Source: Blastococcus sp. TBT05-19 (GTDB taxonomy: Bacteria > Actinomycetota > Actinomycetes > Mycobacteriales > Geodermatophilaceae). From it: a stretch of DNA of 64,000 nt. This document shows, one piece after another, positions 4,938 through 48,660 of the stretch (position 1 is its first letter; each line of letters begins with the position of its first letter). The stretch is from positions 496,001-560,000 of the forward strand of contig NZ_QOHI01000001.1 in NCBI RefSeq assembly GCF_003319095.1. The letters are read 5' to 3'. The notes below the pieces were generated by a model. That model searched no databases and was not told where the DNA came from. It worked only from the letters and a program-made list of their open reading frames with translations. The position numbers were made by a program, and so were the translations under genes.

Positions 4938-4947
4938 CCCCGGGCCC

Positions 4948-27645: not shown

Positions 27646-27676
27646 CTGCCCCCGCACGGTCCGATCGGGTGAACCC

Positions 27677-27716
27677 GTGACGCTCCGTGTTGACGCTCGC
27701 CCTGACTCTCTGTGAG
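27677..27716 (+). promoter_or_regulatory. Two BldD-like boxes upstream of the phosphoglycosyltransferase gene
   Basis: CTGACTCTCTGTGAG (27702-27716) differs from the Streptomyces BldD consensus (nTnACnCWGnGTnAn) at one defined position. GTGACGCTCCGTGTT (27677-27691) differs at two. Both lie more than 100 bases upstream of the first gene of the polysaccharide locus. Confidence 0.4.
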
Positions 27717-27796
27717 TGTGGCCGCTGATCAGCACGACTGCGCGGCACGAAGTGGCTGCTCAGAGCCCTGGGACTCCAGTCCGGGTGTTCGAGTAG

Positions 27797-27812
27797 TTAC
27801 GCTGCGTAATAT
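27797..27812 (+). promoter_or_regulatory. Candidate -10 (TAATAT) with TTACGC-T-GCGTAA palindrome
   Basis: TAATAT at 27807-27812 is one of the most AT-rich hexamers in the window and overlaps the perfect palindrome TTACGCTGCGTAA (27797-27809). It lies 18 bases before the ATG of the locus's first gene. A good -35 is not visible, so an activator or alternative sigma factor may be needed. Confidence 0.4.
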
Positions 27813-27830
27813 CGTTCGGGGGGACGCGCA

Positions 27831-29336
27831 ATGCTTCTGGACCGCCAGCAGGCGAGTACGGGGGCGGTGATCCTGCCGGGGGCACCCGGTGGATCGACCG
27901 CTCCGTCGCTGCCACGGCCACGCCCCCTCGTCCGGCGCTCGGCCCCCGCGTGGGTGCGGTCCTACACCGTCGCGCTGGCCGGGGCGGAGACGCTGATGGC
28001 CGCCGCGGCAGGCGCCGCCGTGCTGCTGGGCCAGGACGCTCCCGTCGGCCCGCGCACCGTGCTGCTGTGGGCCGCGCTCGCGCTCGTGGTGGCCTGGCCG
28101 GTCCTCCTCGGCTCCACCGGCGCCTACGCGGAGCGGGTGTACGGCACCGGGAGCGACGAGTACCGCCGCGTCGCCCGCGCCGGCTTCCTGCTGCTGGCGC
28201 TCGCCAGCTTCCTGTCCTACGCCGCCGCGCTCGACCTCAGCCGCGCGCTGGTCGTCGTGGCCATCCCGCTGCTCACCGGCGCGACGCTGCTGGGCCGGTA
28301 CGTGGCCCGCACCCGGCTGCGCAGGCTGCGCGCCCAGGGGCAGTGCACCAAGAAGGTCGTCGTCGTCGGCCGAGGTGGCGCGGTGCTGGAGCTCGTCGGC
28401 CGGCTGCAGCGCGAGCAGTACGCCGGGCTGGACGTGGTCGCGGCGGCCGTCACCCCTGCCGACCGGGTGCGGGTCGCCGAGCGGGCCGGCGTGCCCGTCG
28501 GCGGCCTCGACGACGTGCTGCTGCTCGCCGACCTGCACGACGCGGACACCATCGCCGTCACCTCGGCCAGCGAGACCGCCGCGCAGTACCTCCGCCAGCT
28601 GTCCTGGCAGCTCGAGGGCACCGGCATCGAGCTGCTCGTGGCCCCCGGCCTCATCGAGGTGGCCGGCCCCCGGCTGCACATCCGCCCCTTCGAGGGCCTG
28701 CCGCTGCTGTCCGTCGAGCAGCCGTGCTTCGAGGGCTGGCGGCGGGTCGTCAAGGGCGGCTTCGACCGCGCGGCGGCCGCGCTGGCGCTGCTCGTGCTGG
28801 CCCCGGTGCTCCTGACCGTCGCCGCGGCGGTCCGGCTGAGCAGCCCTGGCCCCGTGCTCTACCGCCAGGAGCGGGTGGGGCTGGGCGGGCGCACGTTCAC
28901 CATGCTCAAGTTCCGCAGCATGGTCGTCGACGCCGAACGGCAGCTCGACTCCCTGCGCGGGGACAACATCTCCGACGGCCTGCTCTTCAAGCTGCGGGCC
29001 GACCCCCGGGTCACCCCCGTCGGCCGGCTGCTCCGGCGGCTGTCCCTGGACGAGCTGCCCCAGCTGCTCAACGTCCTCGGCGGCTCCATGTCGCTGGTGG
29101 GCCCTCGTCCGCCGCTGCCCGCCGAGGTCGCGCGCTACGACACGTCGGTCAGCCGGCGCCTGCTGGTGAAGCCGGGACTGACCGGCCTGTGGCAGATCTC
29201 GGGACGCAGCGACCTCTCGTGGGAGGAGTCCGTCCGGCTCGACCTGCGCTACGTGGAGAACTGGTCGCTGGCGCTGGACGTGCTCATCCTCTGGAAGACC
29301 GGCCGGGCCGTGCTCTCCAGCTCCGGGGCGTACTGA
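27831..29336 (+). CDS. Exopolysaccharide polyprenyl glycosylphosphotransferase (WcaJ/CpsE type)
   Basis: Transfers a hexose-1-phosphate from a UDP-sugar to undecaprenyl/decaprenyl phosphate, starting the repeat unit of an exopolysaccharide. 501 residues. Four N-terminal membrane helices (about 42-155) are followed by a Rossmann-like domain (KKVVVVGRGG, near 177) and a fifth hydrophobic segment near 310-335. The C-terminal catalytic domain has KFRSM, DELPQLLNVLGGSMSLVGPR and PGLTGLWQISGRSD. It is the first gene of the 21-kb locus, after a 185-bp region containing BldD-like boxes and an AT-rich -10. Confidence 0.94.
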   Translation: MLLDRQQASTGAVILPGAPGGSTAPSLPRPRPLVRRSAPAWVRSYTVALAGAETLMAAAAGAAVLLGQDAPVGPRTVLLWAALALVVAWPVLLGSTGAYAERVYGTGSDEYRRVARAGFLLLALASFLSYAAALDLSRALVVVAIPLLTGATLLGRYVARTRLRRLRAQGQCTKKVVVVGRGGAVLELVGRLQREQYAGLDVVAAAVTPADRVRVAERAGVPVGGLDDVLLLADLHDADTIAVTSASETAAQYLRQLSWQLEGTGIELLVAPGLIEVAGPRLHIRPFEGLPLLSVEQPCFEGWRRVVKGGFDRAAAALALLVLAPVLLTVAAAVRLSSPGPVLYRQERVGLGGRTFTMLKFRSMVVDAERQLDSLRGDNISDGLLFKLRADPRVTPVGRLLRRLSLDELPQLLNVLGGSMSLVGPRPPLPAEVARYDTSVSRRLLVKPGLTGLWQISGRSDLSWEESVRLDLRYVENWSLALDVLILWKTGRAVLSSSGAY

Positions 29337-29450
29337 CCTCCCCCTCCCGGGCGTCACTCGCAGGGGTCACGCGGCCCCGCGGAACGGTCCCCGCAGCCCA
29401 TCTGATGGGTGAAGCTCCTGGTCAGACGGCGTTGCGCCGGCACCTCCCAG

Positions 29451-29477
29451 GTGTCCGGGACGTGCGCTCCCGGACAC
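29451..29477 (+). other. Stem-loop just upstream of the glycosyltransferase start
   Basis: GTGTCCGGGA pairs perfectly with TCCCGGACAC across a 7-nt loop. The hairpin ends five bases before the GGAGGGG ribosome-binding site of the gene at 29491. It could influence its translation or protect a processed end. Confidence 0.5.
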
Positions 29478-29490
29478 GGATGGAGGGGTC

Positions 29491-30732
29491 ATGCGGATCG
29501 CCATGGTCGGCACGCGCGGAGTACCCGCTCGGTACGGCGGCTTCGAGACCGCCGTCGAGGAGGTGGGCCGGCGGCTCGCCGACCGGGGCCACCGGGTGAC
29601 CGTGTACTGCCGCACGGCTCCGGGCCAGGAGCGCCCCGCGCGGCACCTGGGCATGGACCTCGTCCACCTCCCCGCCGCGCGCAAGCGCTCGCTGGAGACG
29701 CTGAGCCACTCGGCGCTCTCGGTCGGGCACCTGCTGACCCACCGCGCCGATGCGGCCTTCGTCTTCAACGCCGCCAACTCCCCGCTCCTGCCGGCCCTGC
29801 GGGCCGCGCGCATCCCGGTCGCGACGCACGTCGACGGCCTCGAGTGGAAGCGGGCCAAGTGGGGCCCGGTCGGCCAGCGCTACTACCGCGTGGCCGAGGC
29901 GCTGGCCGTGCGCTGGTCCGACGCGCTCATCGCCGACGCCCAGGGCATCGCCGACTACTACCGGTCGGAGTTCGGGGTGCCCACCACCCTGCTGACCTAC
30001 GGCGCGCCGGTGATCTCCCCGGGCACCGGCAAGCTCGCCGAGCTCGGCCTGACCCCGGGCGGCTACCACCTGGCCGTCGCCCGCTTCGAGCCGGAGAACC
30101 ACGTCGACGTCATCGTCGACGGCTACCGCCGCAGCGGCGCCACCAAGCCGCTCGTCGTCGTGGGCTCGGCGCCGTACTCCGACGCGTACACCGCCCGGGT
30201 GCACGGGCTGGCCGACGACCGCGTGCGCTTCCTCGGCGGCGTCTGGGACCAGGACCAGCTGGACCAGCTGTACGCGCACGCCTACACCTACCTGCACGGT
30301 CACTCGGTCGGTGGCACCAACCCCTCGCTCCTGCGCGCGATCGGTGCCGGCACCGCCGTCCTGGCCTACGACGTCGACTTCAACCGCGAGGTCATCGAGG
30401 ACTCGGGCCGGTTCTTCGGCAGCCCCGCCGACGTCGCGGCGCTCGTCGACGCCGCCGAGGCCGACCCGGAGCAGGTCCGCCGCTCCGGGGTGCGGGCCCG
30501 CGAGCTCGCGAAGGGCTACGACTGGGACGACGTCGCCGCCGGCTACGAGCAGCTGGCCCGTCGGCTGGCCGGCCGGCACGTGCCGAGCCGCCGTCCCTCG
30601 GGTCGCCGGTTCCCGGAACCGACCTATGCGCCGGCGCCGGTGCCGTTCCCGCGCCCGGCCCCGGAGGTCGGCGCCGCCCACCCCGTCGCCACGCGTCCCG
30701 ACGTGGTCCCGTTCCGGGGAGCGCAGCAGTGA
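29491..30732 (+). CDS. Glycosyltransferase, DUF1972/GT4 family
   Basis: Probable NDP-sugar-dependent GT-B glycosyltransferase of 413 residues extending the lipid-linked repeat unit in the cytoplasm. The N-terminal DUF1972 signature is MVGTRGVPARYGGFETAVEE, typical of rhamnosyltransferase-like enzymes, followed by THVDGLEWKRAKWG near residue 112. The C-terminal domain has VARFEPENH and GHSVGGTNPSLLRAIGAG, with Asn-Pro-Ser where many GT4 enzymes have the second Glu. The ATG has GGAGGGG six bases upstream. A Pro/Arg-rich tail of about 50 residues may be disordered. The next gene overlaps by four bases. Confidence 0.92.
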   Translation: MRIAMVGTRGVPARYGGFETAVEEVGRRLADRGHRVTVYCRTAPGQERPARHLGMDLVHLPAARKRSLETLSHSALSVGHLLTHRADAAFVFNAANSPLLPALRAARIPVATHVDGLEWKRAKWGPVGQRYYRVAEALAVRWSDALIADAQGIADYYRSEFGVPTTLLTYGAPVISPGTGKLAELGLTPGGYHLAVARFEPENHVDVIVDGYRRSGATKPLVVVGSAPYSDAYTARVHGLADDRVRFLGGVWDQDQLDQLYAHAYTYLHGHSVGGTNPSLLRAIGAGTAVLAYDVDFNREVIEDSGRFFGSPADVAALVDAAEADPEQVRRSGVRARELAKGYDWDDVAAGYEQLARRLAGRHVPSRRPSGRRFPEPTYAPAPVPFPRPAPEVGAAHPVATRPDVVPFRGAQQ

Positions 30733-31415
30733 GCCGCTGGAGTCGCAGGTCCGAGCAGGTCGACGCGGCGCGCACCGGGCACGAGCCGTCCGCGCCACGG
30801 CGCCGCCGGCAGATCGCCATCGGCGCGGCAGTGCTCGTGGCCCTGCTGGCGCTCGTGGCACTCCTGGTCACCCGCCCCGGCAACGGGGACGGCGCCGTCG
30901 CCGCCGCCGACGAGTCGGCGGCCGCGTCGACCTCGGGTGCGCCCGAGACCTCGATCGCACCCCCGCCACCGACCCCCACCCCCACGGGGCCCACCGAGGA
31001 CGTCGACGAGCCGCCGCCGTCCCTGCCGGAGGTCGCCATCGACGCCCCGGCCGCCGTGGGCAACGGGATCGTCGCCACCATCGCCTCGGTGGAGGCGATC
31101 GAGGGCACTGCCGTCGGCCCGGGGAACATCGCCGGTCCGGCACTCCGTCTGACGGTGCGCATCGAGAACGGCACGAGCGAGGCCGTGTCGCTCGACGGCG
31201 TCGCGGTCAACCTGTCCCACGGTGCCGACCGGACGCCGGCCTCGCCGCTGGACGACCCCTCGCGCCGGCCCTTCACCGGCATGGTCGACCCCGGTGCGTC
31301 GGGCGAGGGCGTCTACGTCTTCAGCGTGCCGACCGACGCCCGGGACCTGATCACCGTCGAGGTCGGTTACCAGGCCGGCGCGCCGCTACTCCTCTTCACC
31401 GGCCGGGCGGGCTGA
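30729..31415 (+). CDS. Membrane-anchored extracytoplasmic protein, DUF4352-like
   Basis: 228 residues. A basic N-terminus (about 34 residues) is followed by a single membrane helix at about 36-55, then a Ser/Ala/Pro/Thr-rich spacer (PPPPTPTPTGPTEDVDEPPP) and a folded beta-rich domain from about residue 100. That domain has ALRLTVRIENGTSEAVSLDGVAVNL and VDPGASGEGVYVFSVP, the pattern of DUF4352-type immunoglobulin-like domains. The GTG overlaps the preceding glycosyltransferase stop. Function unknown; it probably sits outside the membrane beside the export machinery. A strong terminator hairpin follows at once. Confidence 0.78.
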   Translation: MSRWSRRSEQVDAARTGHEPSAPRRRRQIAIGAAVLVALLALVALLVTRPGNGDGAVAAADESAAASTSGAPETSIAPPPPTPTPTGPTEDVDEPPPSLPEVAIDAPAAVGNGIVATIASVEAIEGTAVGPGNIAGPALRLTVRIENGTSEAVSLDGVAVNLSHGADRTPASPLDDPSRRPFTGMVDPGASGEGVYVFSVPTDARDLITVEVGYQAGAPLLLFTGRAG

Positions 31416-31432
31416 TCCCGCCGGATCGCTCG

Positions 31433-31478
31433 CGCACGACGACCCGCCACCGCTCCCGCGGTGGCGGGTCGTCGTGCG
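31433..31478 (+). terminator. Strong 21-bp hairpin terminator
   Basis: Perfect 21-bp arms (31433-31453 and 31458-31478) with a TCCC loop, 17 bases after the stop of the anchored-protein gene. It separates the glycosyltransferase operon from the giant secreted proteins. Confidence 0.8.
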
Positions 31479-31528
31479 TCCGGACCCGGGGCGGGCCGCC
31501 GCCGGCAGCCGCAGCGCTGATGCGGACG

Positions 31529-31543
31529 GTCACGCAGAGTGAG
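31529..31543 (+). promoter_or_regulatory. Perfect BldD-consensus box upstream of giant secreted protein 1
   Basis: GTCACGCAGAGTGAG fits every defined base of nTnACnCWGnGTnAn, the Streptomyces BldD box. It lies 150 bases upstream of the gene at 31693 and is repeated, with one mismatch, 96 bases further on. Confidence 0.55.
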
Positions 31544-31624
31544 CCGCTCTCACCAGCACGAGGGACATGACCCCTGCTCGTCACCGGATCGGGTGTCCCC
31601 TCACCCTTGTTCCAGGCCCCGATG

Positions 31625-31639
31625 GTCACGCAGAGTGTC
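31625..31639 (+). promoter_or_regulatory. Second BldD-like box upstream of giant secreted protein 1
   Basis: GTCACGCAGAGTGTC has one mismatch to the BldD consensus and shares 14 bases (GGTCACGCAGAGTG) with the box at 31529. The inverted repeat CCGTTCC-gag-GGAACGG follows at 31646-31662, before the ATG at 31693. Confidence 0.5.
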
Positions 31640-31692
31640 CAGCGTCCGTTCCGAGGGAACGGGCGCGTACTGGAACTTGAGCGGGGGCTCTC

Positions 31693-34600
31693 ATGCGGGA
31701 TGCAGGGACTGGTGCGCGCACGCGCGCCATGGCGGCGATGGTGGCCATGGTGCTCGCGGCCGGCAGCTGGGCGCTGACCGTCCCGACGGCGCGGGCGGAC
31801 TCCGCTCCGCAGCCCGCGACGGCCACCGACCCCGTGACGGTCTCGGCCGACGCGCTGCCCACCGTGCAGATCGACGGCGTGGCGTGGGCTCAGGTCGTCG
31901 TCGGGGACACCGTCTACGTCGCCGGCTCCTTCACCCGGGCCCGGCCCGCCGGGGCGCCGGCCGGCACCGCCGAGACCGTGCGGAACAACCTGCTGGCCTA
32001 CGACATCCGCACCGGCGCGCTCGTCACCTCCTTCGCGCCGAGCCTCAACGCCCAGGCGGTCAGCGTGGCGGCGTCGCCGGACGGCACAAGGATCTACGTC
32101 GGCGGTGACTTCACCGTCGCCGACGGGCAGCCCCGCAACCGGATCGCCGCCTACGACACGCGCACCGGCGCCCTGGTGGACAGTTTCCGGCCGACCGTCA
32201 ACGGTCAGGTCGCGGCCATCGCGGCCACCGGCACCACGGTCTACCTCGGTGGCAACCTCACCGCCGTCGGCGGGGTCAGCCGCACCCGGCTGGCCGCGGT
32301 CCGCGCGTCCGACGGCGGCCTGCTGCCCTGGGCCCCGGTGCCGGGGATCGGCCCCACCAGCGGCAACCGCAACCCGACCGACCCGAGCAAGCCGGGGAGC
32401 ACCGCGACCAGCAACGACGTCAAGGCCCTCGTGGTGACCGGTGGCGGCAGCCAGGTCGTGGTCGCCGGGCGCTTCGACACGATGAACGGCGTCAAGGCCA
32501 CGGGTGTCACGGCGCTCGACCCGACCACCGGCGCGACGCGGACCTTCGAGATCAACCGGCTCATCACGAACCAGGGCGTCAACTCCGCCGTCTGGAGCCT
32601 CTCCACCGACGGCGCCACCGTCTACGGGACCGGGTACGACTACTACGGGCCGGGCAACCTCGAGGGCTCCTTCGCCGTCGACGCCGCCAACGGCCGGGTG
32701 CGCTGGATCGCCGACTGCCGCGGTGACAGCTACTCGAGCTTCCCGGCCAACGGCGTGCTCTACATCGCGTCGCACGCGCACAGCTGCGTGAACATCGGCG
32801 GCTACCCGGAGCAGGACCCGAAGGTCGAGAAGCGCGCCACGGCGATGAGCGCCGCCGCGGCCGGCCGGGTCGGCCCGAGCACCCAGCGCAACCAGAACTT
32901 CACCGGGCAGCCGACGTCCGCGTTGCTCAACTGGTTCCCGCTCCTGTCCCAGGGGAGCGTCACCGGCCAGTACCAGGCGGGCTGGAGCGTCTCGGGCAAC
33001 GGGCAGTACGTCGTGTACGCCGGAGAGTTCCCGCGGGTGAACAGCAAGGCGCAGCAGGGCCTGGTCCGCTTCGCCGTCCCCTCGATCGCGCCGAACGCCG
33101 TCGGTCCGGAGGTCACCCCGGGGGTGGGCGTCACCGCGACCAGCGGGGGGCTGCGCGTGAGCTGGCAGGGCGCCACCGACCAGGACAACCGCGTGCTCAC
33201 CTACCGGGTGTACCGGGACAACGGTGCCCAGCCGGTGGCCACCTTCGCCCGGTCGTCGCTGTGGTGGCGGGTGGCACCCGTCGCGTGGACCGACCGCACG
33301 GCCGCCGCCGGAGCGCACACCTACCGGGTCACCGTGACCGACCCCTTCGGCAACGAGGCCGCCATCGGCACCGGGTCGGGCACCTCGTCCGGTCCCACGC
33401 CGGCCCGGGCCTACGCCTCGGCGGTGGCCACGGACGGGGCGACCGACCACTGGTCGCTCGGCGAGCGCTCCGGCACCGCCCGCTCCGACCTGACCGGCAT
33501 CGACGACCTCGTCGGCAGCGGCGACGTCCGCCACAACTGGTCCGGAGCGCTGCGCGGTGACGCGGACGGCTCCACGTGGTTCGACGGCGTCGGTGGCTTC
33601 CTCTCGACGCAGACCCCGCGCCGCGGACCGCACACCTTCTCGGTCGAGGCCTGGTTCGAGACCCGCAGCACCGCCGGCGGCCGGATCGTCGGCTTCGGCG
33701 ACCAGCGCACCGGGCTCAGCAACAACCACGACCGGATGATCTTCCTGGACCCGTCCGGCAGGCTGCACTTCGGTGTGTACCCCGGCTTCGGCGCCGAGCT
33801 CGTCACGCCGACCGCCTACAACGACGGGCAGTGGCACCACGTCGTGGCCACCCTGGGGACGACGGGGATGCAGCTGTTCGTCGACGGCCGACTGGTCGCC
33901 AGCCGGACCGACGTCGTCATGGCGCAGGACTACCTCACCGGTTACTGGCGGATCGGTGGCGACCGCACCTGGTCCGGGGCGCCCTACTTCAACGGCCTCA
34001 TCGACGAGGTCGCCGTCTACCCCACCATCCTCAGCGCCGAGCAGGTGGCCCGCCACCACGCGATCGGCACGACCGGGACGAGCACGAACCTCGCCCCGAC
34101 GGCGTCGTTCAGCTCCAGCGTGCAGGGGCTGACCGGGTCGTTCGACGGCCGGCTCTCCGCCGACCCCGACGGTGGTTCCCTCAGCCGGTACGCGTGGGAC
34201 TTCGGTGACGGGACCACCGCCACCGGGGCCACCGCGACCCGCACGTACGCGAGCGGCGGCACCTACACCGTCCGCCTGACCGTCACCGACGCTGCCGGTG
34301 CGACGGGCACCACCGAGCGGCAGGTCGCGGTGGTGGCTCCGGCCAACAAGCCGCCGACGGCGGCGTTCACCTCGACGTCGTCCGGCCTGAGCGCCGCGGT
34401 GGACGCCCGGAGCTCCACCGACACCGACGGCACGATCGCCTCCTACAGCTGGGCCTGGGGCGACTCGACGCCGAACGGTTCCGGCGCCACGGCGTCCCAC
34501 ACCTATGCGACCGCCGGGACCTACCAGGTGGCGCTGACGGTGACCGACGACGACGGCGCGGTCTCCACCGTGACCCGGGCGGTCGTGGTGACCGCCCCGG

Positions 34601-36216: not shown

Positions 36217-36470
36217 GCCGGGGTGCCGGGTCGCCCGACGCGACCCGGCACCTCGCACCCAGCTCGACGTCGCGCACCGCATCAGCGCGGTGCGATCGAC
36301 CGATCACAGCTGGTCACGGGCCCCCTCCCTGTGAGGGAGGAAACCGCAGCTCATCACCTGATCAGGCGATCGGCAGAACGGTCCGCACCTGCGATCGTCA
36401 CTCTCGGTACTCGACGACGGCATCCAGGGGGAGGCCGCCGCTCTCGGGTCCTGGCACACGGGGGAACCGC
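36217..36470 (+). promoter_or_regulatory. Spacer between the two giant genes with one weak BldD-like box
   Basis: GTCACTCTCGGTACT (36397-36411) has two mismatches to the BldD consensus. The region also has a CCCTCC/GGAGG hairpin near 36326-36342. It is long enough for a separate promoter, so the paralogues may be transcribed independently. Confidence 0.35.
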
Positions 36471-40982: not shown

Positions 40983-40999
40983 CCCGCACGACGAGCCCC

Positions 41000-41032
41000 G
41001 TGCCGGGCCGGCCCCCGTGGCCGGCCCGGCAC
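41000..41032 (+). terminator. 14-bp hairpin terminator after giant protein 2
   Basis: GTGCCGGGCCGGCC pairs perfectly with GGCCGGCCCGGCAC across a 5-nt loop, 18 bases after the stop codon. Confidence 0.75.
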
Positions 41033-41033
41033 T

Positions 41034-41085
41034 GTGCTGTCCGCGGCACCGTGCTGTCCGCGGCACGGTGCTGTCCGCCGGCGCC
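41034..41085. repeat. 17-nt tandem repeat, about three units
   Basis: GTGCTGTCCGCGGCAC plus one base is repeated twice exactly and a third time with a diverged end, starting two bases after the terminator stem. Each unit contains the short palindrome CCGCGG. The rest of the spacer up to 41252 holds only the ribosome-binding site of the next gene. Confidence 0.75.
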
Positions 41086-41252
41086 ACGGGAGGACGACGC
41101 CCGACCGGGTGACCCGTGGGGGTGAGGGCGTCCGGCCAGCCCTCCCCATGCCTCCCGGACGCGTAGATGCTGGTCGGAGCGACGACCAGCGACCGTGCGT
41201 CCCGCGCGGCCGCATGCCGTCGGACCGGTCAGGCACAGCACGGGAGGCCACA

Positions 41253-42059
41253 GTGGACGGCTCGGGGAACGCCCTCGCCGAGGTCGAGGAGGCGTGGCCG
41301 GGAACGGCTGCCGCTCCCGCACCGCGCCCGGCGGACCCCGAGGGGCTGCGGGCCACGCTCCAGCGGCTGTCGGCCGCCCAGAAGGGTTCGGCCGGGGCGC
41401 CGCTGTACTCGCGCTTCGTGAACCGGCCGCTCGGCCGGTTCTTCGCCGCGCTCGCGTTCGGCGCGGGGCTGACCCCCAACGCGGTGACCGCCGTCAGCGC
41501 CGCGTTCACCGCCACCGGCATCGCGCTGCTCGCGCTCGTGCCGCCGTCGGTTCCGATGGGGCTGACCGTCGCCGCCTGCCTGGTCCTCGGCTACGGCCTC
41601 GACGCCGCCGACGGCCAGCTCGCCCGCCTGCGCGGTGGCGGTTCGCCGGCGGGGGAGTGGCTCGACCACATGGTCGACGCCGCCAAGGTCGCCGGCCTGC
41701 ACCTGGCCGTGGCGATCGGCCTGTACCGCTTCACCGACGTCGACCCGGCCGTGCTGCTCATCCCGCTCGGGTTCTGCTTCGTCGACGTCGTGATCTTCTT
41801 CGCGATGATGCTGAACGAGGCGCTGCGCGCCCAGCACGGCGCCGCCACGCGCGCCCAGGGCCCCACGCAGCAGGTGGGCATCGCCCGCTCGGTCCTGGCG
41901 CTGCCGACCGACTACGGCGTCCTGGCGCTCGCCTTCGTGCTCTTCGGCGCGACGTCGGTCTTCGTCCCGGTCTACGCGGCCCTCGGCCTGGCCGAGGGGC
42001 TCTTCCTCGCCCTCGCGCTGGTCAAGTGGTTCCGCGAGATGGACCGACTGCCCCGATGA
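41253..42059 (+). CDS. CDP-alcohol phosphatidyltransferase family membrane enzyme
   Basis: Integral membrane enzyme of 268 residues that transfers a phospho-alcohol from a CDP-alcohol to an acceptor. The complete CDP-AP signature is DGQLARLRGGGSPAGEWLDH followed by MVD (about residues 124-146), with all metal-binding aspartates present. About six membrane helices follow. GTG 41253 was chosen for the GGGAGG seven bases upstream; longer in-frame readings have no such site. It is in a polysaccharide operon, with a glycosyltransferase overlapping by ATGA, and a cytidylyltransferase lies at 48661. The acceptor may therefore be a glycan or lipid-linked sugar rather than a phospholipid (inference). 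Confidence 0.9.
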   Translation: MDGSGNALAEVEEAWPGTAAAPAPRPADPEGLRATLQRLSAAQKGSAGAPLYSRFVNRPLGRFFAALAFGAGLTPNAVTAVSAAFTATGIALLALVPPSVPMGLTVAACLVLGYGLDAADGQLARLRGGGSPAGEWLDHMVDAAKVAGLHLAVAIGLYRFTDVDPAVLLIPLGFCFVDVVIFFAMMLNEALRAQHGAATRAQGPTQQVGIARSVLALPTDYGVLALAFVLFGATSVFVPVYAALGLAEGLFLALALVKWFREMDRLPR

Positions 42060-43261
42060 CCGGCCAGGAGGACCGCCCGCCGCTGCTGGTGGTGCACCCG
42101 GGGTCGGAGCTGTACGGGGCCGACCGGATGCTGCTGGAGTCGGCGACCGCGCTGGCCGGCCGCTTCGCGGTGACCGTCGTCCTGCCCGGCCCCGGCCCGC
42201 TGGTCGCGGAGCTCGAGGCCCGAGGGGTGGCCGTCGAGCTGTGCCCGATGCCCGTGCTGCGCAACTCCGCGCTGCGGCCGCGCGGTGCCCTCCGGCTGCT
42301 CGCCGATGCCGTCCGCGGCCTGGTGCCCGCGCTGCGGCTGCTGCGCCGGCACGGCGCGGCGGGTGTCTACGTCAGCACCCTCACCCTGCCGTCCTGGCCG
42401 CTGCTGGCCCGGCTGGCCGGCCGGCGCTCGATCTGCCACGTGCACGAGGCCGAGCAGTCCGCTCCGCGGCTGCTGCGCCGGGGGATGGCGCTGTGCCCGG
42501 CCCTGGCCGACCGCGTGGTGGCCAACAGCCGGTTCACCCTCGACGTCCTCACCGAGGTGGCGCCGCGACTGCGCCGGCGCGCGACCGTCGTGCACAACGC
42601 CGTGCGCGGGCCCGCGGAGGTCGCCCCGGCCCGGGAGGGCCTCGACGGCCCGGTGCGCCTGCTGTTCGTCGGCCGGCTCAACCCCCGCAAGGGCCCGCAG
42701 GTGGCCGTCGCCGCGCTGGCCGAGCTCACCCGCCGCGGCGTGGACGCCCGCCTGACCGTCGTCGGCGACGTCTTCCCGGGCTACGAGTGGTTCGCCGAGG
42801 AGCTGCGCGCGAGCGTGGCCGACGCCGGCCTCGGGGACCGGGTGGAGTTCCTCGGTTTCCACGCCGACGTCTGGCCCGACCTGGCCCGCGCCGACGTCGT
42901 GCTCGTGCCCGCGGTGGGCGACGAGTCGTTCGGCAACACCGCGGTGGAGGCGGTCCTCGCCGCCCGGCCGCTGGTGGTCAGCGACCACAGCGGCCTGCGG
43001 GAGGCCGCGGCCGGCTACGCCGGCGCCCAGGCCGTCCCCGCCGGCGACGCCGGCGCCTGGGCCGACGCGATCGCCCGCGTGGCCGCCGACTGGCCCCGCT
43101 TCCGCGAGGCCGCCCTCGCCGACGCCGCCGTGGCCCGGCGGCGCTCGGCGCCCGATCGGTACGCCGCCGAGCTGGTCGACGCCGTCGCCGCGCTCCACGC
43201 GCCCCTGCCGGCGTCCCGGGAGCTGCTCGCGCCGGCCACCGGATCGGGGGCCGCGGCATGA
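42056..43261 (+). CDS. Glycosyltransferase family 4
   Basis: GT-B glycosyltransferase of 401 residues using an NDP-sugar in the cytoplasm. The N-terminal domain starts LLVVHPGSELYGADRMLLE; CHVHEAEQSAPRLLR is near residue 126. The C-terminal donor domain has LLFVGRLNPRKGPQVAVAAL (about residue 202) and the EX7E-type block DESFGNTAVEAVLAARPLVV (about 286). The ATGA overlap with the CDP-alcohol transferase and another with the deacetylase gene downstream show a tightly coupled operon. The sugar is unknown. Confidence 0.92.
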   Translation: MTGQEDRPPLLVVHPGSELYGADRMLLESATALAGRFAVTVVLPGPGPLVAELEARGVAVELCPMPVLRNSALRPRGALRLLADAVRGLVPALRLLRRHGAAGVYVSTLTLPSWPLLARLAGRRSICHVHEAEQSAPRLLRRGMALCPALADRVVANSRFTLDVLTEVAPRLRRRATVVHNAVRGPAEVAPAREGLDGPVRLLFVGRLNPRKGPQVAVAALAELTRRGVDARLTVVGDVFPGYEWFAEELRASVADAGLGDRVEFLGFHADVWPDLARADVVLVPAVGDESFGNTAVEAVLAARPLVVSDHSGLREAAAGYAGAQAVPAGDAGAWADAIARVAADWPRFREAALADAAVARRRSAPDRYAAELVDAVAALHAPLPASRELLAPATGSGAAA

Positions 43262-43998
43262 GCGCCGTCGTCAGCCGGGTCTCCGCCCCGGCGGTGCTGA
43301 TGTACCACTCGATCAGCGCCTCGTCCGAGCCCGATCCGCACGCGATCCGGGTGCACCCCGACCGGCTCGACCGGCACCTGGGGCTGCTGCGCCGGCTCGG
43401 TCTGCGCGGCGTCTCGCAGACCGAGCTGCTGCACGCCGTCGACCGCGGGCAGGCCGCCGGCCTCGTCGGCCTGACCTTCGACGACGGTTTCGCGGACTTC
43501 CTCACCACCGCCGTGCCGGTCCTGGCACGGCACGGCATGACGGCCACCGTCTACGTGGTCGCCGGCCACATGGGCGCCACGAACTCGTGGGACACCGGCC
43601 CGCAGTTCCCGATCATGACCGCCGACCAGGTGCGCGCGGCGGCGGCCGCCGGGCACGAGGTCGGCAGCCACACGATGACCCACGCTCGGCTCGCCGGTGC
43701 CGCCCCGGCGACGCTCGCCGCCGAGGTGGGGGACAGCCGGCGGCTGCTCGAGGACGTGCTCCAGGCCGAGGTGCCGGGTTTCTGCTACCCGTACGGGTCC
43801 TACGACGCCGCGGCCGCCGACGCCGTGCGCGCGGCCGGGTACGACAACGCCTGCGTCACCGGCGACTACGTGCCCGGGGACCGGCACACCCTGCCGCGCT
43901 GCTACGTGAGCCCCCGCGACACCCGCGCGCACATCCTGGCGCGGCTCGTCCGGCACGGCGTGCGCATCCGCCGCCCCCTGCCCGCTCCCGGACGCTGA
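43258..43998 (+). CDS. Polysaccharide deacetylase (NodB/CE4) family protein
   Basis: Carbohydrate esterase family 4 fold, 246 residues; removes N- or O-acetyl groups from a sugar polymer or repeat unit. Motif 1 TFDDGF (about residue 75) supplies the catalytic base and metal Asp, and motif 2 HTMTH (about residue 138) supplies the two metal His. CYPYGSYD is motif 3. No signal peptide or membrane segment is visible, so it may act in the cytoplasm on lipid-linked or nucleotide sugars, or leave by an unknown route. It starts with an ATGA overlap with the glycosyltransferase. Confidence 0.91.
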   Translation: MSAVVSRVSAPAVLMYHSISASSEPDPHAIRVHPDRLDRHLGLLRRLGLRGVSQTELLHAVDRGQAAGLVGLTFDDGFADFLTTAVPVLARHGMTATVYVVAGHMGATNSWDTGPQFPIMTADQVRAAAAAGHEVGSHTMTHARLAGAAPATLAAEVGDSRRLLEDVLQAEVPGFCYPYGSYDAAAADAVRAAGYDNACVTGDYVPGDRHTLPRCYVSPRDTRAHILARLVRHGVRIRRPLPAPGR

Positions 43999-44012
43999 CA
44001 GGCGGACCGGAC

Positions 44013-45296
44013 GTGCCCTCCGTGCTCTCGTCCCTGACCGGCCTGCTGCGCCGTCGGGCGACCACCGCCGTCATCGGCCAGGCCACGATGGCGCTGGCCG
44101 GGCTGACCCTGCAGGTCGCCGCCGCCCGGTTGCTCGGCGCAGGCGGGCTGGCGGTGTTCTCCCTGGTCTACGGCGCGCTCGTGCTGGTCACCGCGGTGTG
44201 CAGCGGGATGGTCGGTGACTCCCTGACGGTGCTGGACCGGCACGACCGCGCGGTGCGCGCCGGCCTGCACGTCTGGACCGTCCTCGTGTCCGCCGCCGCC
44301 GGCCTGGCCGGGGCGCTGGCCGCGCTGGTCACGGACGCGGTGCCGGTCTGGGCAGGGCTCCTGCTGGCCCCCGCGTGCGCCGCGTTCGTCGTCGAGGACA
44401 CCCTGCGCCGGCTGCTGATGGCCACCGGCCGGTACAGCGCTCTGCCGGTGGTGGACGCCACGAGCCTGGTCGGCGCGCTGGCGGCGCTGGTGCTGTGCGG
44501 CCTGGCCGGTGGGGTGACGCTCAGCTCGTTCGTCGTCGCGCTGCTGGCCGGGCAGGTCTCGGCAGCCGTGGTCGCCTGGTGGCTGCTGCCCGCGGCCGAA
44601 CGGCCGGCCGGGCCGTGGCGCCGTCCGGGCCTGCGCACCGTCGCCGACTTCGGCGTGTGGCGGGCGGCCGCCCAGACCGTCCGTCCGGGCTCGCTGACGC
44701 TGCTGCGGCTGCTGCTCGTGGGGACGGTCGGCGCGCTGGCCTACGGGCCGCTGGAGGCCGCCCGCGTCTACACCGCGCCGATGCTCACGCTCGTGGCGGG
44801 CATCGCCTCGTTCCTGCTGCCGCACTTCGTCGGCCTGCGCGACCGGCCGCTGCCGGACAGCCTGCGGGTGGCCGACCGGGCGTCACTGGGCCTCGTGGCG
44901 GGGATCGCCACGCTCGGGGTCGCGGCACTGGCCGCGCTGCCGTGGCTCGGGCCCGCGCTGACCGGCGGCGGGTACGACGTGCCCGTGGCGGCCGTCGCCG
45001 GCTGGACCGTGTACGCCGCCTGCGCGGCGCTGCTGCTGCCCTACGCGTCGCTGTCCTCGGTGCACGGCGAGCAGCGCCGGGTCCTCGCGCTGCGCGCCGT
45101 CGAGCTGGTCTCCCTCGGCGGTGTCGCCGCGCTGGTGCTCGTCGCGCCGCACGCGGTGGCCTGGGCGCCGTTCGTGCTCGCCGCCGGCCCGGCGCTGACC
45201 GCGCTCGCCGTCCGCCAGTCCGTCGTCGTCCCGCTGGTCCGGCGAGGTGCCGGCCGGCCGGCCCGCCGGCCCGCCCGGGACGAGGTCCCGGCGTGA
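44013..45296 (+). CDS. Polysaccharide flippase (Wzx/MOP superfamily)
   Basis: Membrane protein of 427 residues with about 12 hydrophobic segments, probably moving the lipid-linked repeat unit across the membrane. It belongs by topology and position to the MOP/oligosaccharidyl-lipid flippase group; sequence motifs in this family are weak. It starts at GTG 44013, 15 bases after the deacetylase stop, and overlaps the polymerase gene by four bases (GTGA). The flippase-polymerase pairing supports Wzx/Wzy-type assembly. The C-terminus is a basic tail. Confidence 0.85.
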   Translation: MPSVLSSLTGLLRRRATTAVIGQATMALAGLTLQVAAARLLGAGGLAVFSLVYGALVLVTAVCSGMVGDSLTVLDRHDRAVRAGLHVWTVLVSAAAGLAGALAALVTDAVPVWAGLLLAPACAAFVVEDTLRRLLMATGRYSALPVVDATSLVGALAALVLCGLAGGVTLSSFVVALLAGQVSAAVVAWWLLPAAERPAGPWRRPGLRTVADFGVWRAAAQTVRPGSLTLLRLLLVGTVGALAYGPLEAARVYTAPMLTLVAGIASFLLPHFVGLRDRPLPDSLRVADRASLGLVAGIATLGVAALAALPWLGPALTGGGYDVPVAAVAGWTVYAACAALLLPYASLSSVHGEQRRVLALRAVELVSLGGVAALVLVAPHAVAWAPFVLAAGPALTALAVRQSVVVPLVRRGAGRPARRPARDEVPA

Positions 45297-46531
45297 CCGC
45301 GCGGGTGCGGGAGACGGCGGTCCCCGGCCGCCTGCTGGTCTGCATGCTGCTGCTGGTCCTCACGACCGTGGGCTGGCGGCGCGGCACCTACTTCACCGGC
45401 TCGGTGGACCCGGTCGTCGCGGCCAAGGGCCTGCTCAGCGTGGCGGCGCTCGTCCTGGCCTACTTCGGTACCCGGCGCGTCGCCCTCCGCCTGGGGACGG
45501 GCACGCTCTGGGCGCTGGGACTGCTGCTCGCCGCCTCGGTGCTCGGGGCGTTGACCCACGGACCGCTGGTCGCCGGCGGGGTCATCGCGGTGCGCGTGAC
45601 CATCGTCGCGCTCACCGTCGTGCTGCTCCTGCGCTGCTACACCGGCACCCAGTTCTTCGCCGCCCTGGCGTGGTCCTCCGCGGGGATCGGCGGGGTGGCG
45701 GCGGTCAGCGGCCTGCCGAGCCTCTCCTCGGGCCGGCTGGCCGGGGGTTTTCCGCAGCTGGCCCCCAACGAGCTCGCGCTGCTCGCCTGCCTCGTGGTGC
45801 TGTACGCCGCGTGGCGGATCGCGCTGGGGGCCAGTGGCGTCCCCATGGCGGGGATCGCCGTGGTGGCGCTCGGCGTCCTGTGGTTCACCGGCTCGCGGAC
45901 GGCGCTGCTCATGCTCGTGCCCGCCCTGGTGATCATGGCGCTGCACGTGCGGCGTGCCCGCGTCGGCCTGGTCGTCAGCGGACTGCTGCTGGCAGCTGCC
46001 GCCACCGTCGCGGCGCTCAGCACCGATGCGCTGACCGCCTTCCTCGAGCGCGACGGCGACGGCACCAGCACGGTGGAGTCGCGGTTCATCGCCTGGGACG
46101 CCGCGACCACGTGGGCCGACGACAACTGGCAGCTCTTCTTCGGTGGCGGCATGTCGGTCAAGATCATCCCGGTCAAGGGTCAGTACTGGGACGAGCAGCC
46201 GCTGGACAGCAGCTGGGTCTCCCTGCTCGTGCAGGTCGGACTGGTGGGTCTCCTCGTGGCCTCGGCCTGGGCCCTGTGGACCGTGCGCGGAGCGCTCCGG
46301 GCCCCACGGGAGTCCCGGGCGCTGTTCCTCGGAGCACTGGTCTTCCTGCTCGGCCGCAGCGTGCTCGAGAGCGGGTTGTTCGACGCGACCCCCGACTTCC
46401 TCGCCTTCCTGGCCATCTCGCTGCTGGCCGAGGGTGGCTCCCGTCGCCGCCTCGCCGAGCAGCCCCCGGAGAGCGGTGCCGGGCCGGCGTTGCCCGCCCG
46501 CCGACCGCGGCCTGCTGCGCTCACCGGCTGA
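45293..46531 (+). CDS. O-antigen ligase/polymerase-like membrane protein (Wzy candidate)
   Basis: 412 residues, about 11 hydrophobic segments and one long extracytoplasmic loop (about 245-305) containing ESRFIAWDAATTWADDNWQLFFGGG. That Arg-rich loop motif is characteristic of Wzy/WaaL-type O-antigen polymerases. It probably joins repeat units outside the membrane. Its start overlaps the flippase stop. The C-terminal about 35 residues are Arg/Pro-rich and cytoplasmic. It is the last clear gene of the forward operon. Confidence 0.84.
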   Translation: MTARVRETAVPGRLLVCMLLLVLTTVGWRRGTYFTGSVDPVVAAKGLLSVAALVLAYFGTRRVALRLGTGTLWALGLLLAASVLGALTHGPLVAGGVIAVRVTIVALTVVLLLRCYTGTQFFAALAWSSAGIGGVAAVSGLPSLSSGRLAGGFPQLAPNELALLACLVVLYAAWRIALGASGVPMAGIAVVALGVLWFTGSRTALLMLVPALVIMALHVRRARVGLVVSGLLLAAAATVAALSTDALTAFLERDGDGTSTVESRFIAWDAATTWADDNWQLFFGGGMSVKIIPVKGQYWDEQPLDSSWVSLLVQVGLVGLLVASAWALWTVRGALRAPRESRALFLGALVFLLGRSVLESGLFDATPDFLAFLAISLLAEGGSRRRLAEQPPESGAGPALPARRPRPAALTG

Positions 46532-46806
46532 CCCTTCCTCGGAGCGCGCCCCGAGGAGACACCGCGCGAGCAACCCCCTGAGCACGGTCGCGCGTCCGTC
46601 CTCGATCGGATGACAGGGCGGTGCGCTCCGCGCACCCCTGGTCAGCGACCCAGCAGCATGGTGGCGACGGCACGGCTGACGGCAGGGTGGACACCGTGGA
46701 CATGGCCCGGCACCAGGGCGAGGGGGAGCAGCCGAACCGTCGAGGGGTGGGGGCCCGACTACCTCGTGCGCCCTCCCTCGCGACGCACGGCCTGGTCAGT
46801 GGAGTC
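46532..46806. other. 275-bp spacer after the polymerase gene
   Basis: The stretch contains no strong gene signal. An open frame runs through it into the small gene at 46807 but lacks a ribosome-binding site and has unlikely composition. I see no hairpin strong enough to call a terminator here. Confidence 0.4.
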
Positions 46807-46950
46807 GTGAACCTCCCGTGGCTGCTGTCGCTCGGATGGACGGGCTTCGTCATCGGATGGGCGGTCACGCTGACCGCGGTGCTCCTGATCAGGACCTTCT
46901 TCGTTGGACGCTGGCGTCGCGACGGCGAGGCGGCGGACGCACAGCCCTGA
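46807..46950 (+). CDS. Small single-span membrane protein (candidate)
   Basis: Reading from GTG 46807 gives 47 residues: a short VNLPWLLSLGWTGF segment, a hydrophobic helix of about 22 residues ending LLIRTFFVG, and a charged RWRRDGEAADAQP tail. TGGAG lies four bases upstream of the GTG. Longer in-frame starts (46621) add an unconvincing Arg/Gly-rich leader. No family is recognised. Its position, just before the bidirectional terminator that ends the polysaccharide operon, is compatible with an accessory export component, but it could be spurious. Confidence 0.4.
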   Translation: MNLPWLLSLGWTGFVIGWAVTLTAVLLIRTFFVGRWRRDGEAADAQP

Positions 46951-47052
46951 AGCCACCCTGGCGACTGCCCCGCGGGATCGCGACCGCCACCTGACCCGCC
47001 GTCGACAGGGCGTCGTCACAGGGACCAGGTCCGGCCGACGGCCCCGGGAACG

Positions 47053-47094
47053 CCGACGGGCCGGCCGGGACCGCGGTCCCGGCCGGCCCGTCGG
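47053..47094. terminator. 42-nt perfect palindrome, bidirectional terminator
   Basis: 20-bp perfect arms around GC, beginning CCGACGGGCCGG. It lies between the forward polysaccharide operon and the convergent Wzz-type gene, whose stop is 19 bases away. Confidence 0.85.
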
Positions 47095-47112
47095 TGCGTG
47101 CCGTGCGTCGGC

Positions 47113-48318
47113 TCAGCCGCGCCGGGCGCCGTTCATCGCGACCGGCTTGCCGGTCGTCGCGACCGGGGTCGGCCTCGGCGGCGTCGGCAGGACCGGCTGC
47201 GCGACGTCCGCGTCGTCGTGCGGGGAACGGCGGCCCCGACCCCGCGGCACCAGGGCGATGGCGAGCGGGGTGATCCCCGCCGAGCCCAGGATGGTGCGCA
47301 TCTCGCGGAGCTCCCGGTCGTCGACCCGGCCGCTCGTCACGACCAGGACGACGCCGTCGTGGCGCTCGGCCACCTGCTTCCAGGAGCGCAGCGGCATCAG
47401 CGGGTCGGCGAGGTCCAGACGGATCCGCGGACCGTCGTTCCCGACCGCGCCGGTGAGGGACTCGGTCACGGCGGCCGTCAGGCCGCGGCCGCCGAGCACC
47501 TCGGTGACCTGCTCGGCGAAGGCGCGGGACGCCTGCTCGTCCGCGGGCGCAGGGGAGAGGACCGCGATCCGCACCGGCTGCTTCTCGGCGTGCAGCTCGA
47601 GCCGCCGGGCGAGCGTGCCGGCCGCCTGCCCGGTCAGGGCGCTGCGGCGGCGGCGACCGGAGGGCTGCACGAGGACCTCGGTGTCCCCGGCGTCCTCGCC
47701 CCAGGCGCGGCGGACGTCGTCCTCGGTGTGCAGCGTCGAGTCCACCCGGCTCCTGACGACCGCGGCCGCCAGGCCGGCGAAGAGCCCGGCGACGACGCCG
47801 AGCACCAGCAGGTAGAGCAGCACGGGGGACGACGGCGAGGTCGGGGCCACGGCGGGATCGACGACGCTGAGGCGCACCGGCTGGTCACCCGACGACGGGG
47901 TCTCCAGGGTCTCGACGACGTCGGTGAAGAGGTCGGCCACCTCGTTCGCGATGGCGGCCGCCTCGACCGCGTCCGGACCGCTGACGGTGACGTGCAGCTG
48001 CGTGGTGTCCGCCGGGTTGGTCGCCGACACCCGGGTCCGGAGCTCGGCCAGCGGCACGTCGAGCCCGAGCTCCTCCCGGACCGGGGCGAGCACGGCCTCG
48101 CTGGTCACGATGTCGGGGTAGCTCTTCACCCGCTGCTGCACGAACGAGGCGCTGTTGGGGATCGAGGGCGAGACCGAGACGAAGACGGTGGCGCTCGCCG
48201 AGTAGGTCGCGGGTGTCACGGCGAACACGAGGAGCCCCGCGAGCGCGCCGGTCAGCGTCGCGCCGACCCAGATGACCCAGTGTCGCCGCACCGCGGCGAC
48301 GTAGTCGCTCAGTTCCAT
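47113..48318 (-). CDS. Wzz/Lyz-type chain-length protein with degenerate BY-kinase domain
   Basis: 401 residues. The N-terminal Wzz domain begins MELSDYVAAVRRHWVIW, with a first membrane helix at about 15-35, a periplasmic segment, a Pro-rich PTSPSSPVLLYLL motif and a second helix (about 165-185). The C-terminal half (about 245-365) has the fold pattern of a tyrosine autokinase. However, where the Walker A GKST would stand the sequence reads RIAVLSPAPADEQASRAF, and there is no Tyr cluster at the end. It probably controls chain length or export as a pseudokinase. The gene is divergent from the cytidylyltransferase gene across a 342-bp region carrying BldD boxes. Confidence 0.87.
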   Translation of the reverse strand: MELSDYVAAVRRHWVIWVGATLTGALAGLLVFAVTPATYSASATVFVSVSPSIPNSASFVQQRVKSYPDIVTSEAVLAPVREELGLDVPLAELRTRVSATNPADTTQLHVTVSGPDAVEAAAIANEVADLFTDVVETLETPSSGDQPVRLSVVDPAVAPTSPSSPVLLYLLVLGVVAGLFAGLAAAVVRSRVDSTLHTEDDVRRAWGEDAGDTEVLVQPSGRRRRSALTGQAAGTLARRLELHAEKQPVRIAVLSPAPADEQASRAFAEQVTEVLGGRGLTAAVTESLTGAVGNDGPRIRLDLADPLMPLRSWKQVAERHDGVVLVVTSGRVDDRELREMRTILGSAGITPLAIALVPRGRGRRSPHDDADVAQPVLPTPPRPTPVATTGKPVAMNGARRG

Positions 48319-48516
48319 GTCGTCCCTTGCCTGCCCGCGCGACCGAGCGAGGCCCGGAAGGGCGCCCTCGGGTCGCGTCCCCCAGTCGGAATTCCGACGA
48401 TATCCGCAGGTCAGCGCGCCGAGGCCGGTGCGGAGGGGCGCCTCACCCCTGCGAGGGGGGCGCTCCCGGCCGTGCCGGCGGCCCCGGCCCCCGAAGGGGT
48501 GAAGTATCCCGCGACG

Positions 48517-48531
48517 GTCACCAAGCGTGAC
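48517..48531 (+). promoter_or_regulatory. BldD-like box, one mismatch
   Basis: GTCACCAAGCGTGAC is the core of a longer inverted repeat, ACGGTCAC-caagc-GTGACCGT (48514-48534), and differs from the BldD consensus at one defined position. Confidence 0.5.
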
Positions 48532-48591
48532 CGTTCTCGATTAACTTTCCGGGCGTCGCCGCTGCGGAGCGCCATGGATGCCGTTCCTCGC

Positions 48592-48606
48592 GTGACCCAG
48601 CGTGAT
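48592..48606 (+). promoter_or_regulatory. Perfect BldD-consensus box
   Basis: GTGACCCAGCGTGAT matches all defined positions of nTnACnCWGnGTnAn and lies 55 bases upstream of the cytidylyltransferase ATG. Confidence 0.55.
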
Positions 48607-48660
48607 CAGGCGAGCGCTCCCGACCGGGGAGTGCGGACCACGGGAGGATCGGGGGATCCC

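Follow-up and report, generated by a model that had tools for sequence, protein, structure and literature searches.

Predicted BldD operators in the promoters of exopolysaccharide and giant-protein genes of Blastococcus and other Geodermatophilaceae

BldD is best known as a brake on sporulation in mycelial actinomycetes. In Streptomyces the regulon of BldD bound to cyclic di-GMP (c-di-GMP), as far as the excerpts of the published accounts used here go, comprises developmental, regulatory and diguanylate cyclase genes (PMC4151990; PMC4255298), and for simpler actinomycetes the excerpt of a 2013 review only suggests BldD roles in growth and stationary phase (PMC4255298). A precedent for a c-di-GMP developmental switch that acts on a surface structure of a unicellular actinobacterium is the RsiG-WhiG switch of Rubrobacter radiotolerans, for which twin-motif RsiG is reported in 16 of 16 Geodermatophilaceae species; it differs from the case considered below in being a sigma/anti-sigma system instead of an operator-binding repressor, and in governing type IV pili, not polysaccharide (PNAS 2021, PMC8325347, in excerpt). 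Here we describe BldD-type boxes in an exopolysaccharide (EPS) locus of a member of this family, Blastococcus sp. TBT05-19, lying in a 64-kb stretch of contig NZ_QOHI01000001.1 (positions 496,001 to 560,000; hereafter the window), where an earlier note had listed seven of them. The locus and its genome resemble the Streptomyces system in the core operator, in an orthologous protein with its c-di-GMP signature, in the position of sites over promoters and in box-like sites before bldD, and differ in that the predicted targets are EPS genes and giant, putatively secreted proteins, and in that the members of the family are rods and cocci. Species of Blastococcus are described as motile rods and/or non-motile cocci tending to aggregate, and in the strains of the same account flagellar genes were annotated but no motility was observed (PMC9686282, in excerpt). 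Among the matches listed for the open-access literature (titles and abstract openings), none was seen to report that BldD controls EPS genes, and an earlier mention elsewhere is possible; the predicted sites on matrix genes would represent a new use of a known regulator.

Two definitions of the operator were applied, namely the strict Streptomyces box nTnACnCWGnGTnAn, whose core TNACNCWGNGTNA is its own reverse complement, and the published core TNAC-N5-GTNA as quoted in an excerpt of Tschowri et al. 2014 (PMC4151990), with the pattern reversed without complementing as the control. Intergenic and coding DNA were distinguished by our own gene calls, which leave 9.7% of the window intergenic. 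The strict box is matched perfectly three times in the window, always between genes and always in the EPS locus, where 0.08 matches are expected from the composition (A 12.7%, T 12.7%; 74.6% G+C), while the reversed pattern is found neither in the window nor anywhere in the 3.92-Mb genome. The same box has ten places genome-wide, and three of these fall within the 21-kb locus. Seven of the ten are clearly intergenic, one is inside a gene (L005:5817) and two overlap gene ends, one of them at a called start codon (L004:4337; related genes begin about 125 bp further on) and the other at the stop codon of the gene before it (L006:4119). The published core gives seven sites in the window and none in reverse; six are intergenic and lie in promoters of the locus (27703, 27797, 31530, 36304, 48518 and 48593), and the seventh, at 12092, is coding. 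When the four promoter stretches are taken by themselves (27646-27830, 31416-31692, 36217-36470 and 48319-48660; 1,058 bp), they hold six core sites against a shuffle mean of 0.078 and a maximum of 2 in 1000 shuffles.

These results confirm the observation from which we started and make it stronger than first noted. The seven boxes are where the earlier note had put them and have the mismatches it had given (31530-31542 and 48593-48605 match the core perfectly, 27703, 31626 and 48518 have one mismatch each, and 27678 and 36398 have two), and its estimate of about 0.1 perfect matches per 64 kb, from A and T each near 13%, agrees with the measured values. Both of its perfect matches are real, but a third, TTACGCTGCGTAA at 27797-27809, had escaped it. 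Its statement that the sites are intergenic and precede genes of the locus is right for those it listed, and passes over two one-mismatch sites in coding DNA, at 48273 in a wzz-like gene and at 50597 in an mfd-like gene.

The sites recur in front of the orthologous genes of related bacteria. Upstream of the EPS sugar transferase, the DNA of relatives has mostly diverged, with blocks kept at about 125 bp and about 20-35 bp before the start. Strict boxes with up to one mismatch number 44 there against 3 for the control in 67 related loci. Of the family loci, 45 of 49 have at least one TNAC-N5-GTNA site before the gene, compared with 3 of 27 from outside the family (78 of 80 loci counted, with genus taken from record titles); within the family such a site is present in 18/21 loci of Blastococcus, 12/12 of Geodermatophilus, 11/11 of Modestobacter and 4/5 of other genera, and one of two paralogues has it too. 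The reversed core occurs there 0 times in the family and once outside.

A similar picture is seen at the divergent region between the wzz and cytidylyltransferase-like genes, which contains 26 core sites in 14.6 kb against 1 for the control, a count that includes the window's own two sites and a repeat (L062 repeats L125). The wzz coding DNA has 4 core sites in 32 kb, and the Wzz proteins of these relatives are 39-76% identical to that of the window. A core site stands before the cytidylyltransferase-like gene in 20 of 26 family promoters, and in 17 of these 20 the hexamer TANNNT follows the first box after 11 or 12 bp (offsets 10-13 tried; background 1.9%). If this -10 is real, the box would cover about -36 to -24 of the promoter. 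An alignment of 18 promoters on the box brings out the -10 and a CC...GGGTGAA block 15-27 bp before the box, in which two C and two G columns are 94-100% conserved. Since its rows were picked for a perfect core, the core columns are invariant by construction; as evidence for the core, column conservation was dropped as circular, and it is used here only in respect of the GGGTGAA block and the -10.

The third set comprises 36 stretches upstream of giant genes, 34 from the family and two (L058 and L080) from outside. It holds 28 core sites in 15.1 kb, compared with 2 for the reversed control and a shuffle mean of 1.4, and the DNA downstream of the giant-gene starts has 1 core site in 100 kb. A perfect core is located at about -147 to -185 in 22 of the 36 promoters, and in ten the best match has one mismatch. 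Both giant-gene promoters of the window share a common layout, in which a BldD core is followed after 50-51 bp by an element resembling BldM sites and after another 44-45 bp by a weaker BldD-like box. Measured from start to start, the two steps are 51 and 45 bp at the first giant gene (the latter from 31581 to 31626), and 50 and 44 bp at the second (from 36304 to the BldM-like element, and from 36354 to 36398); its core match at 36304 was absent from the first list.

Could chance account for such sites, or could they be palindromes retained because of composition or RNA structure? Some of the coarser counts would allow it. When at most one mismatch is allowed, the strict box has eight sites in the window (three perfect and five with one mismatch), only about twice the shuffle mean of 4.18; at least eight are reached in 2 of 100 shuffles, and single one-mismatch sites therefore mean little alone. 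Genome-wide, sites with one mismatch are little above the control (133 vs 91) and too noisy for site-by-site use, and seven core sites in the window as a whole are within the shuffle range (mean 3.7, maximum 9 in 100). Against this stand the ten perfect boxes of the genome with no reversed counterpart, the -10-like hexamer at one spacing in most cytidylyltransferase-like promoters, and the three promoter sets, which exceed shuffles about 20- to 40-fold. The promoter orthologues are related by descent and their site counts are not independent events, so the contrast with diverged flanks and coding DNA is a stronger argument than the raw ortholog counts. By the reversed-pattern control, the shuffles and the family comparison, an origin by chance is rejected, and we regard it as extremely improbable.

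The excess is also seen at the scale of whole genomes. The strict box is more frequent than its control in 19 of 19 genomes of the genus (148 vs 22 in total) and in 92 of 96 genomes of the family. Perfect boxes in eight genomes of the genus occupy 72 places, of which 70 were read; 51 proved intergenic and 19 coding, with gene calls made mostly on 2.2-kb stretches, where missed genes would inflate the intergenic count. With 9.7% of the window intergenic for comparison, this is not the equal density in coding and intergenic DNA that the earlier note had named as a refutation.

A gene for BldD, the other item that the earlier note had wished to see checked, is present as a single orthologue (L007:1402-1959, minus strand; C16, ~285.6-286.2 kb). 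It is flanked on one side by what we take to be an ABC-transporter-like gene, and on the other by genes presumably resembling pyrR and pyrB. Its XRE-type DNA-binding domain matches that of S. coelicolor (2ewt) with E = 2.4e-32 and 58 of 71 residues identical, with residues 33-55 unchanged, and its C-terminal domain matches PF21179 (E = 4.3e-36). This domain carries the sequence RHD-X8-RAED (RHD-YNGKVLSI-RAED), which fits the c-di-GMP signature of BldD, RXD-X8-RXXD, given in an excerpt of Tschowri et al. 2014 (PMC4151990). A search of the genome for close BldD paralogues gave none, the next match being a 31% identical stretch with E = 0.0135. Across the family a PF21179 match is found in 91 of 96 genomes, including 85/85 of good quality. 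We looked among the remaining five for a natural bldD knockout, but all are only 73-81% complete and none was usable. The exact helix string is held by 27 of 30 family BldD loci, and the signature is kept in all 27. At these 27 loci the bldD promoter has one box-like site at about -54 to -58 and another at about -21 to -25, consistent with weak autoregulation. In addition, the 3.9-Mb genome has 40 GGDEF matches, which suggests that it can make c-di-GMP.

A side observation is that so many GGDEF matches point to a large c-di-GMP network. Separately, several genomes, namely class genomes of family f18 as well as G026 and G033, have 2-5 matches to the BldD-like C-terminal domain, indicating paralogues in some lineages.

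We consider it likely that the boxes are operators of this single BldD, and that BldD with c-di-GMP represses the EPS and giant-gene promoters by covering the core promoter. Several observations weigh against this reading, besides the modest counts given above. The DNA-binding domain is only 82% identical to that of S. coelicolor BldD, below the 95-100% stated for BldD of sporulating actinomycetes in an excerpt of Tschowri et al. 2014 (PMC4151990), and in 26 of 27 members the bldD promoter sites carry one mismatch. Just 2 of the 44 strict-box sites that precede the sugar transferase in the 67 related loci are perfect, 6 of 26 cytidylyltransferase-like promoters are without a core site, and 4 of 36 giant-gene promoters lack any match with up to one mismatch. 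In four family genomes (G006, G024, G031 and G042) the forward box is not above its control. Moreover, the gene that most often follows a perfect box in the genus (7 of 8 genomes) is no EPS gene; its protein begins MGLT or MGLS.

A further comparison was made across the class. Among 236 genomes, the ratio of forward to control boxes is 5.3 for those with a strong BldD match (115), 2.3 for those with a weak one (42; families f20 and f24) and 2.0 for those with none (79); strong and no match differ with a Mann-Whitney p = 1.7e-8, which is not corrected for relatedness. However, genomes without BldD still keep a two-fold excess (733 vs 359), some groups that lack it reach high ratios (f25 3.5, f34 3.2 and f31 5.2, the last with 3 genomes), and some families that bear it stay low (f16 1.75, with 1.9 in its BldD-less members; f13 2.4; f35 2.2). 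The box excess thus follows BldD overall, yet it is graded and not all-or-none, with exceptions in both directions, and BldD alone explains it only partly. These exceptions would be expected if another transcription factor used the same TNAC-N5-GTNA palindrome and the presence of BldD were incidental; the tandem boxes and the neighbouring second element would fit other regulators as well. We hold this to be improbable, considering the larger excess with a strong BldD match, the core helix-turn-helix unchanged relative to 2ewt, the conserved box-like sites in the bldD promoter and the absence of a detectable close paralogue in the genome.

As a separate finding of the class survey, five genomes of family f15 (G107, G126, G141, G154 and G167) have 33-81 strict boxes each against 2-6 for the control, many more than the other families listed, and may possess a large BldD regulon.

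A second conserved element accompanies the boxes. In the sugar-transferase set, which consists of 46 sequences with the window included, a promoter pattern was found in 39, and in 35 of these TTG[AC]C follows the first base of GGGTGA by 21-23 bp. The element resembles the S. venezuelae sites of BldM, for which the Group I consensus TCACcCgnncGgGTGA and the Group II (BldM-WhiI) consensus TGnnCCGnnCGGGTGA are given in an excerpt of Al-Bassam et al. 2014 (PMC4125116). In three promoters of the window (sugar transferase, first giant gene and cytidylyltransferase-like gene) its centre lies about 57-62 bp before the start deduced from the -10, where an activator could sit. The likeness to the S. venezuelae promoters (PMC4125116) thus consists in consensus and in an activator-like position, while the copies here have 1-3 mismatches and are joined to BldD boxes on one promoter. 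The identification with BldM or BldM-WhiI is put forward from the recurring place of the element and not from the quality of its match, because coding DNA also contains many matches with 2-3 mismatches. When the element was written as a strict palindrome, CACCNNATCRGGKG, and one mismatch was allowed, there were 60/54 sites against 28/32 for the control genome-wide, and the pattern was set aside as not specific alone. Two overlapping BldM-like matches (1-2 mismatches) are also observed at 41097-41125, before the CDP-alcohol phosphatidyltransferase gene, where there is no BldD core.

From these parts a probable course of regulation can be drawn. At high c-di-GMP a tetramer of the nucleotide would join two BldD subunits, and the resulting dimer would bind TNAC-N5-GTNA over core promoters, together with secondary sites nearby. 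It would overlap the -35 region of the cytidylyltransferase-like gene and, at the EPS sugar-transferase gene, the spacer and -10, and would keep RNA polymerase off the EPS and giant PKD genes. As c-di-GMP falls the operators would be freed, and an activator at the BldM-type site about 60 bp upstream would then drive expression. The dependence on c-di-GMP would follow from the conserved BldD signature, and high c-di-GMP is expected to lower matrix expression because the sites overlap putative core promoters, a repressor's place, and by extension from Streptomyces. The earlier proposal that matrix and giant-protein genes are under c-di-GMP control gains support from the position and conservation of these predicted operators, with the class-wide comparison backing the link to BldD only in part.

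The sign of regulation might be the reverse, with BldD binding as an activator, or acting without c-di-GMP, and with high c-di-GMP raising matrix genes as in many Gram-negatives. Core sites away from the core promoter would suit such an arrangement, such as 27797 in the leader and 31530, which lies some 100 bp ahead of a possible start. But the recurring sites overlap the putative -35, spacer or -10, which is typical of repressors, and the developmental targets in the excerpt of a review are all repressed by BldD; we hold this alternative, too, to be improbable. Through the predicted sites c-di-GMP probably switches the slime and surface coat that these soil bacteria make; with BldD as a repressor, the production of matrix would here be turned off by c-di-GMP. 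More tentatively, and with somewhat less than even confidence, we suggest that the central part of the sporulation circuit known from Streptomyces, namely BldD with c-di-GMP as its co-repressor and a BldM-type activator, was rewired in Geodermatophilaceae onto matrix genes, so that high c-di-GMP shuts and low c-di-GMP opens matrix synthesis, opposite to the usual rule. If so, the switch between motile rod and aggregating coccus would be a unicellular counterpart of sporulation control.

The regulon predicted from perfect boxes is wider than the locus. When the downstream genes in the eight genomes of the genus were grouped by blastp, EPS-type sugar transferases appeared in 4 genomes, one of them with the box over the called start, and the cytidylyltransferase-like gene, the giant gene and a gene with a protein beginning VPYSLVSAATLG in 3 each. 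Others are presumably DUF3145-like (3 genomes) and galT-like genes (2). EPS is hence a recurrent part of the predicted BldD regulon, not all of it. The MGLT/MGLS genes (L004, L152, L166, L177, L181, L193 and L206) have a divergent partner gene in 6 of 7 cases, and we take their product to be possibly a PucR-type regulator.

The sites of the window and the genes of the locus are listed in Table 1.

Table 1. Predicted regulatory elements and genes of the EPS locus, in window coordinates
Feature	Position	Strand	Remark
BldM-like element CGGTCCGATCGGGTGA	27657..27672	+	1 mismatch to BldM-WhiI Group II consensus; upstream of sugar-transferase promoter
Degenerate BldD-like box	27678..27690	+	2 mismatches to strict core; adjoins -35; kept in part of family only
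Putative -35 TTGACG	27690..27695	+	TTGAC or TTGCC in most aligned sequences
BldD core match TGACTCTCTGTGA	27703..27715	+	perfect TNAC-N5-GTNA, one mismatch to strict box; in promoter spacer and over putative -10
Putative -10 GAGTGT	27714..27719	+	18 bp after -35; GANNGT in most aligned sequences
Perfect strict BldD box TTACGCTGCGTAA	27797..27809	+	directly before sugar-transferase ribosome-binding site
Exopolysaccharide polyprenyl glycosylphosphotransferase (EPS sugar transferase)	27831..29336	+	TIGR03025 above cut-off
Glycosyltransferase family 4-like gene	29491..30732	+	
228-aa protein, no Pfam match	30729..31415	+	matches in 38/110 scanned loci
Perfect strict BldD box TCACGCAGAGTGA	31530..31542	+	upstream of first giant gene; ~100 bp upstream of possible transcription start
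BldM-like element TCACCGGATCGGGTGT	31581..31596	+	2 mismatches to Group I consensus
BldD box, one mismatch, TCACGCAGAGTGT	31626..31638	+	over putative -10 GAGTGT, 31633-31638
Giant PKD/laminin-G protein 1, 1507 aa	31693..36216	+	start possibly 31729
BldD core match TCACAGCTGGTCA	36304..36316	+	3 mismatches to strict box; upstream of second giant gene
BldM-like element TCACCTGATCAGGCGA	36354..36369	+	3 mismatches to Group I consensus
Degenerate BldD-like box	36398..36410	+	2 mismatches; second giant gene promoter
Giant PKD/laminin-G protein 2, 1503 aa	36471..40982	+	
CDP-alcohol phosphatidyltransferase-like gene	41253..42059	+	
Glycosyltransferase	42056..43261	+	
Polysaccharide deacetylase	43258..43998	+	
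Membrane-protein-like gene, no Pfam match	44013..45296	+	flippase role guessed, from gene position alone
Wzy_C (O-antigen ligase/polymerase) protein	45293..46531	+	
Wzz-type chain-length protein	47113..48318	-	divergent from cytidylyltransferase-like gene
BldM-like element GCCCCCGAAGGGGTGA	48487..48502	+	3 mismatches to Group I consensus
BldD core match TCACCAAGCGTGA	48518..48530	+	one mismatch to strict box; over putative -35 region of cytidylyltransferase-like promoter
Putative -10 TAACTT	48542..48547	+	11 bp after box
Perfect strict BldD box TGACCCAGCGTGA	48593..48605	+	before cytidylyltransferase-like gene
Cytidylyltransferase-like nucleotidyltransferase	48661..49119	+	PF01467

The genes around the sites encode an EPS glycosylphosphotransferase, glycosyltransferases, the two giant PKD/laminin-G proteins, a CDP-alcohol phosphatidyltransferase, a polysaccharide deacetylase, and Wzy_C, Wzz-type and cytidylyltransferase-like proteins. 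The sugar transferase is 71-90% identical to its Blastococcus counterparts with full-length matches, and the first giant protein is probably secreted, judging from its hydrophobic N-terminus. On the left the locus is flanked by L25 and peptidyl-tRNA hydrolase genes, and on the right by genes that we take to resemble mfd and enolase.

A few further perfect boxes are found elsewhere. In L161, L162, L174 and L200, from three other genomes of the genus (G058, G028 and G088), perfect boxes precede another EPS-type sugar transferase or coincide with its called start, and in G058 one also stands before a glycosyltransferase-like gene, which suggests that a second EPS locus belongs to the same predicted regulon. 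The perfect box at L003:4425 lies about 190 bp before a gene (4628-4954) that presumably resembles the actinobacterial integration host factor gene mihF. A gene with a GGDEF match (L001:3024-4195) is followed after about 107 bp by another perfect box, and the gene downstream of this box presumably resembles DUF3145.

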